Of a DNA stretch of 25,325 nt, positions 9,146-24,421 are shown in pieces. Below the pieces are notes generated by a model, which saw only the letters and a list, made by a program, of their open reading frames with translations, ran no database searches and was not told the origin of the DNA. Every line of letters begins with the position of its first letter. Positions within the stretch are counted from its first letter, which is position 1. A program made the translations under genes and the position numbers. The stretch is taken from IMG/VR virus record IMGVR_UViG_3300042868_002187, positions 1 to 25,325 of that record; one strand, given 5' to 3'. Source of the stretch: a virus.

Positions 9146-9591
9146 TGGCAAAGAAAAGCGGTGTTGATTCGAAGCAATTAGCCGATTTGCAAAATAAGAT
9201 TGAACAATTGGGCAAATTATCCAAACAGGAATTGTCTAATGAATTGGTAAAAACTGCAATGTTTGCAGTTGCAGGAATGAAAACTGATGCCAGACACGAC
9301 ACGGGTAATTTGAGAAATCAAACCGGATTTGAAAGGCAAAATGAAAATACGGTTGTTATTTTTTCACGTGCGCCATATGCGCCCTTTGTGGAATTTGGCA
9401 CAGGTAGATTGGTAGATTTACAGCATTTGACAAAATTAGGATTCCCAGCATCTTATGCAATGCAATTCAAGGGCAAAGGGATCAAGAAAGTAAATTTACC
9501 GGCACGGCCTTTTTTCTTTACAAATTTGCGTAAAGAATTGGGCGATTTAACAAACAGGTTAGAAACCAAAATTAAACAATTGACAAAATAA
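9145..9591 (+). CDS. HK97 gp10-like neck/tail protein
   Basis: A 148-residue protein with the pattern of the HK97 gp10-like family: DTGNLRNQTGFE near 52, the YAPFVEFGTGR motif in the middle and ARPFFFTNLRKEL near the C-terminus. In lambda- and HK97-like phages this protein lies at the head-tail junction or tail completion step. The N-terminal region (residues 9-40) is a charged helix. It overlaps its upstream neighbour by one base and its final base overlaps the next ATG. Confidence 0.87.
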   Translation: MAKKSGVDSKQLADLQNKIEQLGKLSKQELSNELVKTAMFAVAGMKTDARHDTGNLRNQTGFERQNENTVVIFSRAPYAPFVEFGTGRLVDLQHLTKLGFPASYAMQFKGKGIKKVNLPARPFFFTNLRKELGDLTNRLETKIKQLTK

Positions 9592-10031
9592 TGTTAGAAC
9601 CGATACAATTCATCCGTAAGGCAATCATCACACGTTTGACAAATAATGTGGTGATTGGTGGTGTGACATTTGGTGTTTATAACCGTGTGCCATCAACGGC
9701 ATCGTTTCCATACATTTTGGTGTATTCTGTTTCATCAGATGAAACCGATTTTAATCAATCATCGTATATCACAGAAACAATCACACGTATTGAAGTGGTG
9801 ACACGTTTTCAATCTGATTCAGGCGGTGAAATCACAGCCAACAGCGCAATCAATAGAATTTTAGAATTAATTAGAACACGATCAAACGGATATTTTGATT
9901 TGTCTGCGGATGGATTCAATGTATTTACGTGCGTAAAGGAGTCATCAACGTACATTGTGGATGATGAACCAGATCACACGTATTTTCGTGGTATTGTAGA
10001 AATAAGCAACAAAATCCAACAAACAATTTAA
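9591..10031 (+). CDS. Tail terminator / tail completion protein (DUF3168, gp17-like)
   Basis: A 146-residue protein resembling the DUF3168/gp17-like tail completion family that caps the growing tail tube. Visible features are the N-terminal helix FIRKAIITRL, the VYNRVPSTASFPYILVYSV segment with the conserved P-x(5-6)-PYI, a TRIEVVTRF strand and a helix ANSAINRILELI. Length and position after the gp10-like protein fit. It ends one base before the holin-like gene, so lysis genes follow directly in the same operon. Confidence 0.84.
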   Translation: MLEPIQFIRKAIITRLTNNVVIGGVTFGVYNRVPSTASFPYILVYSVSSDETDFNQSSYITETITRIEVVTRFQSDSGGEITANSAINRILELIRTRSNGYFDLSADGFNVFTCVKESSTYIVDDEPDHTYFRGIVEISNKIQQTI

Positions 10032-10032
10032 A

Positions 10033-10320
10033 ATGGAATTAAGGGATGCCATTATTGGCCTAGCATCATCATCAGTCACGGCATTCATATCGTGGATATT
10101 AGGGAAACGCAAAGAAAATGCGGACATCAGTACAATACAATTAGAAAATTCCCAACGTGTGATTGATATGGTTACCCAAATGAATGAAAAGTTGGAGGCA
10201 AAGGTTGATCAATTAAGCAAAAAGGTTGATGAATTAACGGTTGAAATTGAAAACCTGCGTGAAGAAAATCACAAATTAAAGCACGGAAAACCTGTAAAAA
10301 AGAAAGAGGAAAACGAATAA
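10033..10320 (+). CDS. Holin-like membrane protein with coiled coil
   Basis: A 95-residue protein with one predicted membrane helix at residues 5-24 (AIIGLASSSVTAFISWILG), then a basic GKRK stop and a long coiled coil (about 35-85: NEKLEAKVDQLSKKVDELTV). The basic tail KPVKKKEENE suggests the C-terminus is cytoplasmic or otherwise exposed. It lies immediately before the peptidoglycan peptidase with an ATGA overlap, the typical place for a holin. No holin family is recognised by sequence, so an alternative role as a membrane-anchored structural or antiholin protein cannot be excluded. Confidence 0.55.
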   Translation: MELRDAIIGLASSSVTAFISWILGKRKENADISTIQLENSQRVIDMVTQMNEKLEAKVDQLSKKVDELTVEIENLREENHKLKHGKPVKKKEENE

Positions 10321-10808
10321 TGAAAGATCAAATCACATTGGACAGAATCAAATTGATGCACCCGAAATTGCGTGCGGAAGTTGCGATAATTTACGATGAA
10401 ATTGTGAACGCATTAAGAGGCAAAGCATTTTGCAGATTTACGCACACATTGCGCACATTTAAGGAACAAGAGGCAATATATGCACAGGGCAGAACAAAGC
10501 CCGGCCCAATCGTTTCAAAGGCAAAACCGGGTTTAAGTTTACACAATTACGGATTGGCAATTGACATCGTTTTAATTGATGGCAAATCTGTTTCGTGGGA
10601 TATGAAAAAGGATTTTGATGGGGATGGCAAAGCAGATTGGATGGAGGTTGTGGCCGTGTTTAAAAAGTACGGTTGGGAATGGGGCGGTGATTGGAAAAGA
10701 TTTCCGGATGCGCCACATTTTCAAAAAGCATTTGGAAAAACACCATCGCAATATTTTGCAATGTGGAATGCTAAAAAAGTGGATGCAGATGGGTATGTGA
10801 TTTTGTAG
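10320..10808 (+). CDS. M15 family peptidoglycan peptidase (endolysin)
   Basis: A 162-residue zinc peptidase of the VanY/L-alanyl-D-glutamate endopeptidase type that would cleave peptide stems of the cell wall. Zinc-ligand motifs are SLHNYGLAID (H75 and D82) and DAPHF (H133, with D130 as likely general base). A substrate-pocket segment TLRTFKEQEAIYAQGR precedes them. An acidic loop DFDGDGKAD at 98-106 lies between the ligand motifs and resembles a calcium-binding EF-hand-like loop. There is no signal peptide, so export would depend on the upstream holin. The gene overlaps the holin-like stop (ATGA). Confidence 0.93.
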   Translation: MKDQITLDRIKLMHPKLRAEVAIIYDEIVNALRGKAFCRFTHTLRTFKEQEAIYAQGRTKPGPIVSKAKPGLSLHNYGLAIDIVLIDGKSVSWDMKKDFDGDGKADWMEVVAVFKKYGWEWGGDWKRFPDAPHFQKAFGKTPSQYFAMWNAKKVDADGYVIL

Positions 10809-10818
10809 GATATATTCA

Positions 10819-10847
10819 ACATTAATGGCAAAAATGGGTATTAATGT
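10819..10847. promoter_or_regulatory. Inverted repeat ACATTAAT-N13-ATTAATGT before the spanin-like gene
   Basis: Perfect 8-bp arms (10819-10826 and 10840-10847) sit in the 76-base gap between the peptidase and spanin-like genes. A second small dyad AACAT-TAT-ATGTT follows at 10859-10871. No T-run follows the first dyad, so it is more likely an operator or an mRNA hairpin than a terminator. Confidence 0.4.
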
Positions 10848-10884
10848 AAAATATAACCAACATTATATGTTAAATAATATAAAA

Positions 10885-11334
10885 ATGAAAAAATTCCTAA
10901 TCATCGCAATTATCCTGTTTGCAAGTTGCAAACCATCAAAAACAATCATCAAAGAAAGCACGATTGTTAAATATGATACCATTCACACATCAGATGTGAT
11001 TTATAAAACAAAGGCAATCCGTGATTCAATTATCATCGAAAATCCGTGCGATTCTACGGGCATTTTAAACAAGTTTTATTCGAAATTTGTAATACCACAA
11101 GGCACAATCACATTGCGTTCAACACAGGGCAGAATTGAGGCCAAAATTGACATTGATTCAATTGAATCTGTGTACAAATCCAAATACCAATTGTCAAAAT
11201 CGGACAATGTTCGAATTTCTAACAAAGAGGTGATCAAAAATGTTGTTCCTGCGTGGGCCATTATTACCATCTTTTTTGAATCAGTCATCATTATCGGATA
11301 CGTGTTTTATAAAATGAGGCTTTTTATTTTTTAA
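10885..11334 (+). CDS. Lipoprotein with C-terminal membrane helix: candidate unimolecular spanin
   Basis: A 149-residue protein beginning at ATG 10885. The N-terminus is a lipoprotein signal: MKK, hydrophobic FLIIAIILFAS, then Cys15 followed by KPSK. Residues 20-118 are periplasmic and beta/charged, with repeated Ile/Asp-Ser motifs. Residues 121-142 form a clear C-terminal transmembrane helix (PAWAIITIFFESVIIIGYVF) ending with a basic tail. A lipid anchor at one end and an inner-membrane helix at the other is the defining layout of u-spanins such as T1 gp11, which fuse inner and outer membranes at lysis. It directly follows the M15 peptidase. ATG 10825 would add 20 residues before the signal sequence and is less likely. 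Confidence 0.75.
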   Translation: MKKFLIIAIILFASCKPSKTIIKESTIVKYDTIHTSDVIYKTKAIRDSIIIENPCDSTGILNKFYSKFVIPQGTITLRSTQGRIEAKIDIDSIESVYKSKYQLSKSDNVRISNKEVIKNVVPAWAIITIFFESVIIIGYVFYKMRLFIF

Positions 11335-11338
11335 CTTG
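11331..11338 (+). promoter_or_regulatory. Weak candidate promoter before the tail fibre gene
   Basis: TTAACTTG is a 6 of 8 match to TAnnTTTG, but the following bases GCATAAAAATAAG are nearly identical to those after the -7 box of the second tail tube gene (17768 onward). The shared extension makes a promoter plausible. The site overlaps the end of the spanin-like gene and lies 22 bases before the fibre ATG. Confidence 0.35.
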
Positions 11339-11360
11339 CATAAAAATAAGCAGGTAAAAA

Positions 11361-14300
11361 ATGGCATCATTAACCGGGAATTTGGTTGCGGAAACCTACA
11401 AAGCATTATTAAAAACCATTGATAATGACATCCTAACAGCATCAGAAAAACAAATTACAGATGGATTTGGGGGTGGATCAAATGTTTTTATTGATTCTAA
11501 TGGGTTTTTAAGAGCCAACAAATACAAAGTTACAAACGGATTAGCCACGCAATTTTTAAAGGCTGATGGATCATTGGATGCAAATACCTATTTGACATCC
11601 ATAACAAGTTCACAAATCATCACGGCATTAGGTTACACACCGGTGACAAATGCACGTACATTGACAATCAATGGAACGACATATGATTTGAGTGCAAACA
11701 GATCGTGGACAATTGCAGGAACAGCAGCCGTTTGGGGAAACATTTCAGGCACATTATCAGATCAAACAGATTTGCAAAATGCATTAAATGCCAAATTCAA
11801 CAATCCAACCGGTACAATTTCGCAATACATTCGTGGTGATGGCACATTGGCCACATTCCCAGCCATCACAGGATTTGTGCCATATACAGGGGCAACACAG
11901 GATGTTGATTTAGGAACGCATACATTATTAGCACGTGATTTGGTTATTGATCACGCAAGTGCAAGCGGAACGGCTGTTGATATTACAAAGGGCGGATCAG
12001 GTATTGCGGTTAATATAGAAAAAAGCGGATCAGGCGAAGCATTAACAGTTGTAAAATCAAGCGGTAGCGGTAACGCAGCAAGCATTACAGGCGGAACAAC
12101 ATTGATTTCTGAATTGCATTTAACTACAAAATTAGCCGATGCTTATATTTTATCAGCAGCAACGTGGAATGCAAAACAAAACGCATTGAATGGAACAGGG
12201 TTTGTAAAAGCATCAGGCACGACAATATCGTATGATAATTCAACGTATTTAACCACAGCGGATGCAGCAAGTACATACCAATTATTGACTAATTTATCAA
12301 CGGATTTGACTGCATCGGCAACCAAATATCCATCGGTAAACGCAGTCATTGCAGGATTGGCAACAAAACAAAACCAATTAAACGGGACAGGATTAGTTCG
12401 AATGGATGGCACAACCGTTTCATATGATAATAATTCATATGTAACAGGAAGCGGATCAGTTGGATACATTTCAAGTTGGAATGCAACAACCGGTTTGACA
12501 AATTCATCATTATTTCAATCATCCGGGAGCATTGGATTAAATATCACAAATGTAAATTATTCGGCATACGGTCGGGCATTTACAGGTGCATCATTTGCTG
12601 CATCATCATTTGGTTATGAAATAGCAAGTGGCGCAACAGCGGATGGTGGATTATTAGGCGGATTAGCTTATGTTTTAACTGAAAACGATGCATCACGCAG
12701 AATTGGGGCAAAAATTGAATCAAACGTTGTTGGAACTACGGCCACAAATTTAGGTGCAAATTTAAGATTTTACGTAAAGGCAGACAACGCAGCAATTGCA
12801 GAAATCGCAAGAATGACTGCATCAGGTGTGACATTTTATTCAGGAATTACAGCGACATCATTTGTAAAAACAGGGGGAACATCAAATGAGTATTTGCGTG
12901 CTGATGGTAGTGTGAACGTAATTACAGGGGATATTATTTCAGGAAGTGGCACAGCGGGTTACCTTTCAAAATTTAATTCATCATCGGTAATTGTATCATC
13001 GAATTTATTTGAAAGTGGTGCAAATATAGGTTTTGGAACAATCACATTAAATTATGGATCATATGGCCGTGCATTTACAGGTGCAGGTTTTGGATCAACA
13101 GCATTTGGTTTTGAGGCGGTAACAGGATCAACAACAAATGGTGGTTTAATTGGTGGCCTTTCATTGGTAATTGCATCCAATGATTCTACACGCAGAATCG
13201 GATCAGCGATTCAATCCTATATTTCAGGGGCAACATCAACGCATCAAGGTGCAGATTTAAGATTTTTTGTAAAACCAGACAATGGGGTTTTATTAGAGGT
13301 TGTACGAATGACATCGGCCGGAATCACATTTAATAAGGATTTAACGGCTGCAAATATCACGGCAACAACATTTGTAAAATCGGGTGGAACAGCATCTGAA
13401 TTTTTAATGGCAGATGGCACGGTTTCTACATTATCTAGTCCGGTTTCAGGTTCAGGATCGTCCGGATACATTCCTAAATGGACATCAGCATCTAATCTCG
13501 GTTCATCTAATATTTATTCTGATGGAACATCAATTGGTATTTCATATACAACACCAAATAAAGGCGGATATGGTCGTGCGTTAAGTGGTGCAGCATTCGG
13601 TTCGTCATCGTTTGGATTTGAAGTCGTAGGAGGCACAACGACAAATGGCGGATTGCTTGGTGGTTTATCCTTTATTGTTAATCAAAACGATTCATCACGA
13701 ATTGTTGGATCAGCAATTCAGTCAAATTTGGTTGGCACAACAGCAACAAATTATGGTGCTGATTTAAGATTCTTTGCAAAAGCAGATGGAGTTTTTACAA
13801 TTGCCGAAGTTGCACGAATAACATCGGCCGGATTGCGTGTTTATGGAACGATTGTAAAAGATGGCGGAACATCAAGTCAGTATTTAATGGCGGATGGATC
13901 TGTTTCAACATTGACAGGGGTTGTCACAGGATCAGGAACAACAAATTATTTACCAAAATGGACATCAGGAAGCGCATTAGGAAATAGTTTAATTTATGAT
14001 GATGGAACAAATATTGGAATAGGTACAACCACAATGTATGGCAAACTTTCTGTTTCATCAGGTAATGCACAAGCAATTAGGGTTGATTCGAATGCCGGAT
14101 ATGCATCTATAAGCATTGGAGGTGTTGGAACATTTTCAATAGATGCACCAAGTGTTGCAGGTGGTAGATTCTTAATTTTCGATAACGGAAATACATCAAT
14201 TGGATCAAATACTGATTCAGGTTTTAAATTTTTTGTAAACGGATCAGCTAAAATTTCTACATCAATTGTTTCGCAAGATTACAGATTTGAAGGCACAGGA

Positions 14301-23400: not shown

Positions 23401-23423
23401 AATTAGTTAAATGGCTAATTTTG
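23401..23423 (+). promoter_or_regulatory. Candidate promoter with AATTAG-N8-CTAATT dyad, second copy
   Basis: AATTAG (23401-23406), eight bases, CTAATT (23415-23420) overlaps a TAATTTTG -7 box (23416-23423), as at 6056-6078. Upstream TTTT and CTAATTAG context and downstream A-rich leader are also shared. It follows a terminator and lies 14 bases before the ATG at 23438. Confidence 0.6.
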
Positions 23424-23437
23424 AAAAAAAACTACAA

Positions 23438-24421
23438 ATGGGTTTAAAACACGATCAAATCAAGGATCATTTTTTTTCATCGCCATTGTCAATGAAACAT
23501 TTTTCGGAAAAATACCACGAAACGTATGGGTATTCAGATGCAAAGCAGATGCGAAAAATGATGAGCCGGTACAATATTTTATCACGTGTAAGGGCTGAAA
23601 AAACATTGGCTGATTTACCAAAGGCACAAATTGAAACATTAACGTGGGAGGAAATTGATAATTTTGGAATTGAGCCATCAATTGGCAAAGAATACACATC
23701 GGCACGATTACCTGATAATTTAAAGAAAATTGGCATATTATCGGATATTCACGTGCCGTTCCATTCAGTTGAAGCCGTTGTGTGTGCCATTAAGTATTTA
23801 AAGGATCAAAACATTGATTGCTTGTATCTAAATGGCGACATTTTTGATATGTATAGTCAATCCAGACACGAGAAAGAAAAAGATTTAAGGGATTTGCCAC
23901 GTGAAATTGAAATGGGCCGTAATTTTTTGCAAAAACTTCGTGATATATTTCCAACAATACCGATTTATTATAAAATGGGAAATCACGAAAATCGTTGGCA
24001 AAGATATTTAAACGAACAAGCAGAGGAATTTGCGCAATTACACGAAATGCAATTTGAGCAATTTTTTAGATTGGATGTATTGGACATTAAATATGTTCCT
24101 GATTGGCAGGGAATGGAAATGGGCGATTTGTTGGTTTGTCACGGTCACGAATTGATGGCAGGTGGAATGAATCCATCGCAAAGCACGTTCAATAAAACGT
24201 TCTGCAATACATTGATTGGACACGTTCACAGATCAACAAATACCACAAAAAAAACAGGATTTAAACAATACATCCACACGTATTCCACAGGATGTTTGAC
24301 ACAATTATCCCCCAAATACTATCCATTTGCACAGCACAATCACGGGTTTGCATTAGTAATGATAACCGATGGAAAAGCAAAGGTTGAAAATCTAATGATA
24401 AAAGATGGAAAAATTGTGTAG
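23438..24421 (+). CDS. Calcineurin-like metallophosphoesterase
   Basis: A 327-residue protein from ATG 23438, chosen because the earlier in-frame ATG 23411 lies inside the dyad/-7 box and this one follows an A-rich leader ending CTACAA. All metallophosphoesterase motifs are present (numbered from 23438): LSDIHVPFH (D103, H105), NGDIFD (D134), MGNHENR (N182, H183), VCHGHE (H235) and GHVHR (H262, H264). The N-terminal 80 residues are helical and contain a KHFSEKYHETYGYSDAKQMRKMM segment that may be a DNA-binding helix-turn-helix. The family cleaves phosphoesters, including nucleic acids and nucleotides; the substrate here is unknown. It is the first gene after the tail module, with its own promoter and terminator. 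Confidence 0.9.
   Translation: MGLKHDQIKDHFFSSPLSMKHFSEKYHETYGYSDAKQMRKMMSRYNILSRVRAEKTLADLPKAQIETLTWEEIDNFGIEPSIGKEYTSARLPDNLKKIGILSDIHVPFHSVEAVVCAIKYLKDQNIDCLYLNGDIFDMYSQSRHEKEKDLRDLPREIEMGRNFLQKLRDIFPTIPIYYKMGNHENRWQRYLNEQAEEFAQLHEMQFEQFFRLDVLDIKYVPDWQGMEMGDLLVCHGHELMAGGMNPSQSTFNKTFCNTLIGHVHRSTNTTKKTGFKQYIHTYSTGCLTQLSPKYYPFAQHNHGFALVMITDGKAKVENLMIKDGKIV

Follow-up and report, generated by a model that had tools for sequence, protein, structure and literature searches.

Gene order and the candidate gene

We analysed a window of 25,325 bases, the whole of one IMG/VR virus record. Its genes encode, in order, a terminase, a portal protein, a Mu-F-like protein, a prohead protease, a capsid protein, a head completion protein and connectors. 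Next come a membrane protein of 95 aa, the M15 endolysin and the protein studied here (149 aa), and then a 1569-aa repetitive protein, the tail tube and the tape measure. The features of the cassette are listed in Table 1. The best matches of the terminase were in Phocaeicola and Bacteroides phages (about 41%), those of the endolysin in Riemerella and Cellulophaga phages (58% identical), and those of the capsid protein in proteobacterial phages (about 34%); homologues of the 149-aa protein occur in Polaribacter and Cellulophaga phages. Judged from such sequence matches, the host phylum is likely to be Bacteroidota. Promoter and terminator scans of positions 9500 to 11700 gave hits at shuffle level only, and no integrase (PF00589) was found in the eight related records, all of which may be fragments. 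The window also contains a ParB-like N-terminal domain fused to an N6/N4 DNA methylase (525-2051).

A sequence-only reading of this DNA had described a gene product at 10885-11334 with a lipoprotein signal (Cys15) and a membrane helix at residues 121-142, placed behind a zinc endolysin. The ORF (plus strand, 149 aa) is present as described. Its frame is open from position 10825 (169 aa), and the ATG at 10885 gives 149 aa; in the relatives L006, L007 and L014, the endolysin stop codon lies 2 bases upstream of the ATG that corresponds to 10885, which supports this start over 10825. We found the lipobox (FASC), and the best 19-residue hydrophobic window (residues 120-138, mean Kyte-Doolittle 2.15) and the AlphaFold helix both lie close to the helix described. 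The lipobox and helix calls throughout were made by our own rules, not by SignalP or DeepTMHMM. The single C-terminal membrane helix is followed by a basic tail, and the periplasmic part between Cys15 and the helix has about 107 residues. The upstream zinc endolysin was likewise recovered as an M15 peptidase ending 76 nt before the candidate. It carries the motifs HNYGLAID and PHF, which we take to be zinc-ligand motifs.

Table 1. Features of the predicted lysis cassette (window coordinates)
Feature	Position	Strand	Evidence
Candidate holin, 95 aa; one membrane helix at the N-terminus followed by a coiled coil; predicted topology N-out/C-in	10033..10320	+	charges; neighbour conservation
Endolysin (162 aa), M15 zinc peptidase without a visible signal sequence	10320..10808	+	PF13539 E 2.4e-19; PHROG endolysins E 2.5e-29
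Unimolecular spanin candidate, 149 aa	10885..11334	+	ORF, family conservation, lysis position, AlphaFold
Lipoprotein signal sequence, residues 1-14	10885..10926	+	sequence; AlphaFold helix 4-13
Codon of lipobox Cys15 (FASC)	10927..10929	+	invariant, 40/40 in alignment A4
Codon of invariant periplasmic Cys55 (PCDSxG motif)	11047..11049	+	one periplasmic Cys in 102/102 full-length members scored
Predicted three-stranded beta meander, residues 63-90	11071..11154	+	AlphaFold, pLDDT ~60
C-terminal membrane helix, residues 123-148	11251..11328	+	AlphaFold block means 84, 92, 79; hydropathy

Specificity of the dual-anchor signature

The detection rule required a lipobox and a C-terminal helix. The spanin candidate was the only positive among the 83 ORFs of at least 60 aa in the window. 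Across the loci collected for comparison, 111 of 2498 ORFs were positive; 108 of these carried the CD[ST] motif of the family, two were spanin-like proteins of other phages, and one was an antisense false positive. When the residues of the candidate were shuffled, 4 of 20000 shuffles passed the rule. As a positive control, the rule picked exactly gp11, the prototype unimolecular spanin (u-spanin), from the 29 ORFs of a 7.5-kb stretch of phage T1. By the window, locus, shuffle and T1 controls, the dual-anchor signature of the candidate is not a chance one. In addition, the median dN/dS of the gene was 0.11 (404 pairs, 29 distinct close relatives).

Relatives of the candidate

The first scan returned 40 viral loci, with most full-length relatives 84-100% identical. 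Profile scans of IMG/VR gave 105 and later at least 209 relatives; the lowest identity among the relatives returned (the best 80 of 209 in the last scan) was about 38%. A scan started from the Polaribacter homologue added seven loci, with 29-37% identity to this query. The only cultured phage matched by the candidate sequence was Polaribacter phage P12002S (tblastn, 26%), and an HMM of 15 members additionally reached the Cellulophaga phages Nekkels, phi10:1 and phi19:1. Met1, Cys15, Asp31, Cys55, Asp56 and Trp124 were invariant in an alignment of 18 sequences that included all kinds of relatives.

The profile of phrog_30696, a family of unknown function, matched candidate residues 1-144 with its positions 1-145 of 157 (E 1e-5), and 6 of 15 members matched at E≤0.01 when phrog_30696 was compared with alignment A2. 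The matches of the candidate in Pfam and NCBIfam were all below threshold and at chance level. A profile search of host genome contigs with the A1 and A2 patterns found no relative; these patterns are narrow and would still allow for prophage occurrence. The family is currently without annotation as lysis proteins. A C-terminal LF motif that the candidate shares with the Riemerella and P12002S proteins was dropped from consideration, the relatives ending in FKFIY, LLSR, GLRV and others.

The members of the family are not independent of one another. The protein tree was built on 91 distinct proteins, three of which (L124, L127 and L129) lie outside the 102 full-length members scored for residue conservation. 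That scoring omitted L054 (a longer start was picked), two loci to which no hydrolase class was assigned (L091 and L105), loci without an upstream ORF, and cut frames.

The lysis-gene neighbourhood is conserved while the hydrolase changes

The sequence-only reading had proposed a comparison of neighbours and held that homologues lying consistently far from lysis genes would speak against a spanin. A peptidoglycan hydrolase was the immediate upstream ORF in 107 of 109 scorable family loci, and homologues away from lysis genes were confined to three Cellulophaga phages. The count covered 115 loci, with the copy of the window (L001) left out; six lacked an upstream ORF of 70 aa, four of them near contig ends (L017, L022, L026 and L036) and two in Cellulophaga phages (L092 and L093). 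The upstream enzymes were a GH24 lysozyme (53 loci), M15_4 (34, the window included), M15_3 (14), a second M15_4 type (5) and another M15_4 (1, in P12002S). These types are BLAST clusters, of which 11 representatives were checked by Pfam (Phage_lysozyme, M15_4, M15_3); the P12002S enzyme fell just below the Pfam cut-off (23.9 vs. 25 bits). At most hydrolase-spanin junctions, the starts overlap or lie a few bases apart. The protein tree requires at least 10 changes of upstream hydrolase type, and the well-supported branches alone force five changes for GH24. The spanin gene thus keeps its place while unrelated hydrolases are swapped, and the best reading of it is that of a lysis gene itself. 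What is conserved is the predicted role of the neighbour, not one linked gene.

The two exceptions were L091 (Nekkels) and L105. In Nekkels, the genes before gp70 are one for an acyl carrier protein and a small one, and the lysozyme lies 1.7 kb off with reverse-strand genes between. The upstream frame of L105 did not yield a hydrolase call, and the frame at this locus is longer and possibly fused. In phi10:1 and phi19:1, no annotated lysis gene was present in the stretches viewed around the homologue. Phage lipoproteins include superinfection-exclusion proteins, and a protein of that or another lipoprotein kind, set beside the endolysin by happenstance, would suit the Cellulophaga homologues that are not adjacent to an annotated lysozyme. 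We regard this as extremely unlikely, given the endolysin adjacency through repeated endolysin swaps, the C-terminal inner-membrane helix in the AlphaFold model, and the lack of a surface-export signal.

A calcineurin-like phosphoesterase is encoded at 23411-24421 of the window (phrog_221, E 1e-40). Its relatives lie at most 400 nt downstream of the spanin gene in 39 of 98 family loci; the window differs, as the tail module intervenes. Synteny with the phosphoesterase beside Nekkels gp70 was set aside as support, because the enzyme of the window has no BLAST similarity to that one.

Among the seven loci from the Polaribacter-homologue scan, DUF5675 was upstream in three and M15_3 in one; the other three were not scored (L126 unparsed; L128 with the upstream frame cut and no Pfam match; L130 cut). 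DUF5675 (PF18925) occupies the endolysin slot at L127:3442-3852 (E 9e-26), L125:1189-1599 (E 4e-23) and L129:1402-1812 (assigned by near-identical sequence). It lies directly before the spanin gene in L127 and with one ORF between in L125, and L124 has an M15_3 peptidase in this place. Since it fills the endolysin slot before distant spanin members, DUF5675 is a candidate for an uncharacterised peptidoglycan hydrolase.

The 95-aa membrane protein

A relative of the 95-aa membrane protein precedes the hydrolase in 81 of 106 family loci. This association, the single membrane helix with a coiled coil, as in i-spanins, and a far sub-threshold match to LysB would fit a two-component spanin, in which the 10033-10320 protein is the inner half, the candidate is the outer-membrane half and the C-terminal helix of the candidate is incidental. 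However, the acidic N-terminus and the GKRK after the helix predict a C-in topology for the 95-aa protein, the reverse of i-spanins, and we take it for a holin candidate rather than an i-spanin. Moreover, it was not found in 25 of the 106 loci, all of which keep the spanin gene, and the C-terminal helix, the best-predicted part of the candidate, is conserved among the members scored. A two-component arrangement at this locus is therefore improbable.

Predicted structure and sorting to the outer membrane

The AlphaFold model of the candidate had a mean pLDDT of 57.9 and a pTM of 0.25, and the end helix was the only high-confidence part. Behind the signal helix, residues 14-50 were of low confidence, followed by strands at 63-70, 73-80 and 83-90 and a helix at 93-104. 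For a distant family member, four strands and the same end helix were predicted (pLDDT 52.2). The periplasmic part had earlier been described as beta-type. The model bears this out only in part, with three predicted strands beside the low-confidence linker and helix 93-104; 24 of the roughly 107 periplasmic residues lie in strands in this low-confidence model. A beta content of the periplasmic part is plausible, though weakly supported by models of such confidence. The sole Foldseek match of the model under 1e-3 was the protein of P12002S; the other matches, all listed above 0.06, were disregarded. A sequence search of solved structures with the candidate gave no matches.

The lipobox cysteine was present in all 102 full-length family members scored. 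The residue after it was K in 92, R in 9 and G in 1, and D or E occurred at +2 to +4 in none of the 102. The net charge of the last 12 residues was +1 to +3 in every member scored. According to the available part of PMC5080379, the surface-export signal of Bacteroidota is K-(D/E)2 or similar, with the optimum C-X-K-(D/E)2-X. As the candidate has no such signal after the lipid cysteine, its lipidated N-terminus should, by prediction, stay on the periplasmic face of the outer membrane.

An invariant periplasmic cysteine

Exactly one cysteine lies between the lipid cysteine and the helix in 102 of 102 full-length members scored. Its distance from the lipid cysteine is 39 or 40 residues in these members; P12002S and Nekkels have a spacing of 40, and L124 one of 38. 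This residue was overlooked in the sequence-only reading. Kongari et al., in the part of the paper available to us, give no periplasmic cysteine for any of 58 catalogued u-spanins, a regularity and not a definition (PMC6139136). We found no cysteine between the lipobox and the helix of T1 gp11, and the dual-anchored proteins of Riemerella and Elizabethkingia phages, which are unrelated, have no periplasmic cysteine either. The invariant periplasmic cysteine is a real departure from the catalogued u-spanins.

The same part of that paper reports that homotypic disulphides were needed in the two-component spanin systems tested (PMC6139136). We tentatively propose a class of cysteine-bridged u-spanins, a reading that we consider possible but short of probable. 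Cys55, between the flexible N-terminal linker and the beta-type core, would form an intermolecular disulphide between two dual-anchored chains, and the covalent dimer so made would be the working unit, held by a pair of lipid anchors and a pair of membrane helices. If this is true, the disulphide requirement of two-component spanins extends to a single-chain family without detectable relation to gp11, and the family offers a route to locating where the membrane-fusion force is borne. In the titles, abstracts and passages searched, mostly from outside subscription journals, we recognised no description of a cysteine-bearing u-spanin family.

A probable unimolecular spanin as the third gene of the cassette

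Taken together, the 149-aa protein is very probably a unimolecular spanin, the third gene of a cassette with a candidate holin and an M15 endolysin. The sequence-only reading had proposed this function, and it is borne out by the dual anchoring, the position after the endolysin, and the conservation of both in relatives. Several lines of evidence carry this reading. First, both anchors are present and conserved in the full-length members scored. Second, the hydrolases directly upstream belong to unrelated families that changed repeatedly along the tree. Third, the T1 cassette has the same gene order with near-zero spacing. Finally, the P12002S homologue, found by tblastn and Foldseek, directly follows an endolysin, and the family profile reaches Nekkels gp70, in whose neighbourhood the authors noted a potential unimolecular spanin, as stated in the accessible part of PMC8776804. 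Against this reading stand the lack of a detectable relation to gp11, the periplasmic cysteine, the low model confidence outside the helix, the distance of the Nekkels gene from the lysozyme, and the lack of an annotated lysis gene near the homologues of phi10:1 and phi19:1.

Cassette position alone cannot separate a spanin from other lysis accessory roles, and a lysis regulator, antiholin-like or holding the endolysin, with both ends tethered in the inner membrane would also sit here. For such a regulator, a lipobox with lysine at +2 and a periplasm-crossing linker would be unneeded, and the T1 cassette is a close architectural parallel. We consider a regulator very unlikely.

As a u-spanin, the protein would be cleaved by signal peptidase II before Cys15, and the Lol pathway would put the lipidated N-terminus into the inner leaflet of the outer membrane, as suggested by Lys +2 and the lack of an acidic export signal. 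The C-terminal helix would stay in the inner membrane, so that one chain spans the periplasm. In the published spanin model, the peptidoglycan mesh would hold the spanin inactive until the endolysin, freed by the holin, has cut it. The spanin molecules would then diffuse, cluster and collapse, and this collapse would pull and fuse both membranes and rupture the outer membrane.

Bacteroidota u-spanins are already in print. The portions of the sources available to us report two cases among North Sea flavophages, a unimolecular spanin in Ingeline and, close to the GH19 of Nekkels, a potential one (PMC8776804), state in a 2025 survey that unimolecular spanins are the only kind used by Bacteroidetes phages (PMC12596118), and credit spanins also to crAss-like and Porphyromonas phages (PMC10136315, PMC10367356). 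The earlier statement that u-spanins are poorly documented outside proteobacterial phages is thus out of date (PMC8776804, PMC12596118), and the kind itself is not new. The function described here is an ordinary one and is well supported; the family is unannotated and shows one real departure, the invariant cysteine. In the literature searched, we came across no experimental model of how Bacteroidota phages rupture the outer membrane. The family provides a large alignable set of u-spanins, with the IMG/VR relatives, a cultured representative (P12002S gp33) and a clear cassette. Its one invariant residue, Cys55, can be mutated, which asks whether single-chain spanins need covalent dimers. The conserved third gene of the cassette also points to the gene before it, as with DUF5675 in three distant loci.

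Comparison with known systems

Among six isolate loci, selected as M15 neighbours or by homology, a dual-anchored protein lay beside the endolysin in P12002S, PJA1 and TCUEAP1; by the lipobox and helix rule, none lay beside the endolysin of phiSM, fF4 or 1/32. In Elizabethkingia phage TCUEAP1, the unannotated ORF L045:2540-3067 overlaps the M15 endolysin and has a lipobox and a C-terminal helix. It is likely a missed u-spanin outside the profile of the candidate family. In Cellulophaga phage phiSM, overlapping genes for an N-terminal-helix protein and a lipoprotein (gp12-gp13, L043:3492-4044) follow the M15 endolysin, and the lipoprotein start seems misplaced, with an ATG near L043:3676. These genes are possibly a two-component spanin, which, if real, contradicts the exclusive use of unimolecular spanins in Bacteroidota phages.

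The Riemerella phages (PJA1; RAP44 gp03) also have a protein with lipobox and C-terminal helix beside the endolysin, and in RAP44 beside an annotated holin as well. It differs from the candidate in having no family-profile match, 192 aa and no periplasmic cysteine. The same protein occurs at 100% identity in OQ791282.1 ('Shigella phage Henu10'), whose endolysin is 57.5% identical to that of the window, as similar as those of Riemerella phages; there may be an error in the record or in its host label.

Polaribacter P12002S gp33, annotated as 'hypothetical protein', is 26-30% identical to the candidate and has the same architecture and cysteine. Its annotated start (L042:3019) cuts most of the signal, and the ATG at 2977 restores it (L042:2977-3429). 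In the P12002 genome paper, a term search of the main text found no mention of spanin, holin or endolysin (PMC4615864). The family profile identifies Nekkels gp70 (phrog_30696) as a homologue (E 1.5e-9, searched against a small set of ORFs), and gp70 shares the lipobox, the C-terminal helix and the cysteine spacing. It differs in being only about 25% identical and not adjacent to the lysozyme. Of the 33 ORFs in the 12 kb around the lysozyme, gp70 alone is dual-anchored, and by elimination it is probably the 'potential unimolecular spanin' meant in PMC8776804.

Compared with a two-component o-spanin of the Rz1 type, the candidate differs by its own C-terminal helix and by a neighbouring membrane protein of opposite predicted topology to an i-spanin. 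The closest parallel in architecture is the T1 gp11 family (phrog_1804, 'Rz-like spanin'; PMC6139136). Both have a lipobox and a single C-terminal helix, their lengths are similar (133 aa for gp11, 149 aa for the candidate), and the order of the T1 cassette (gp13 holin, gp12 endolysin, gp11 spanin, gaps near zero) matches the order and spacing of the family. The two proteins have no sequence similarity (hhalign probability 0.7%; BLASTP E 18). Moreover, the gp11 pattern, as given in the available part of PMC6139136, is a short helix followed by four or more strands, whereas the candidate is predicted to have a low-confidence linker, three strands and then a helix.
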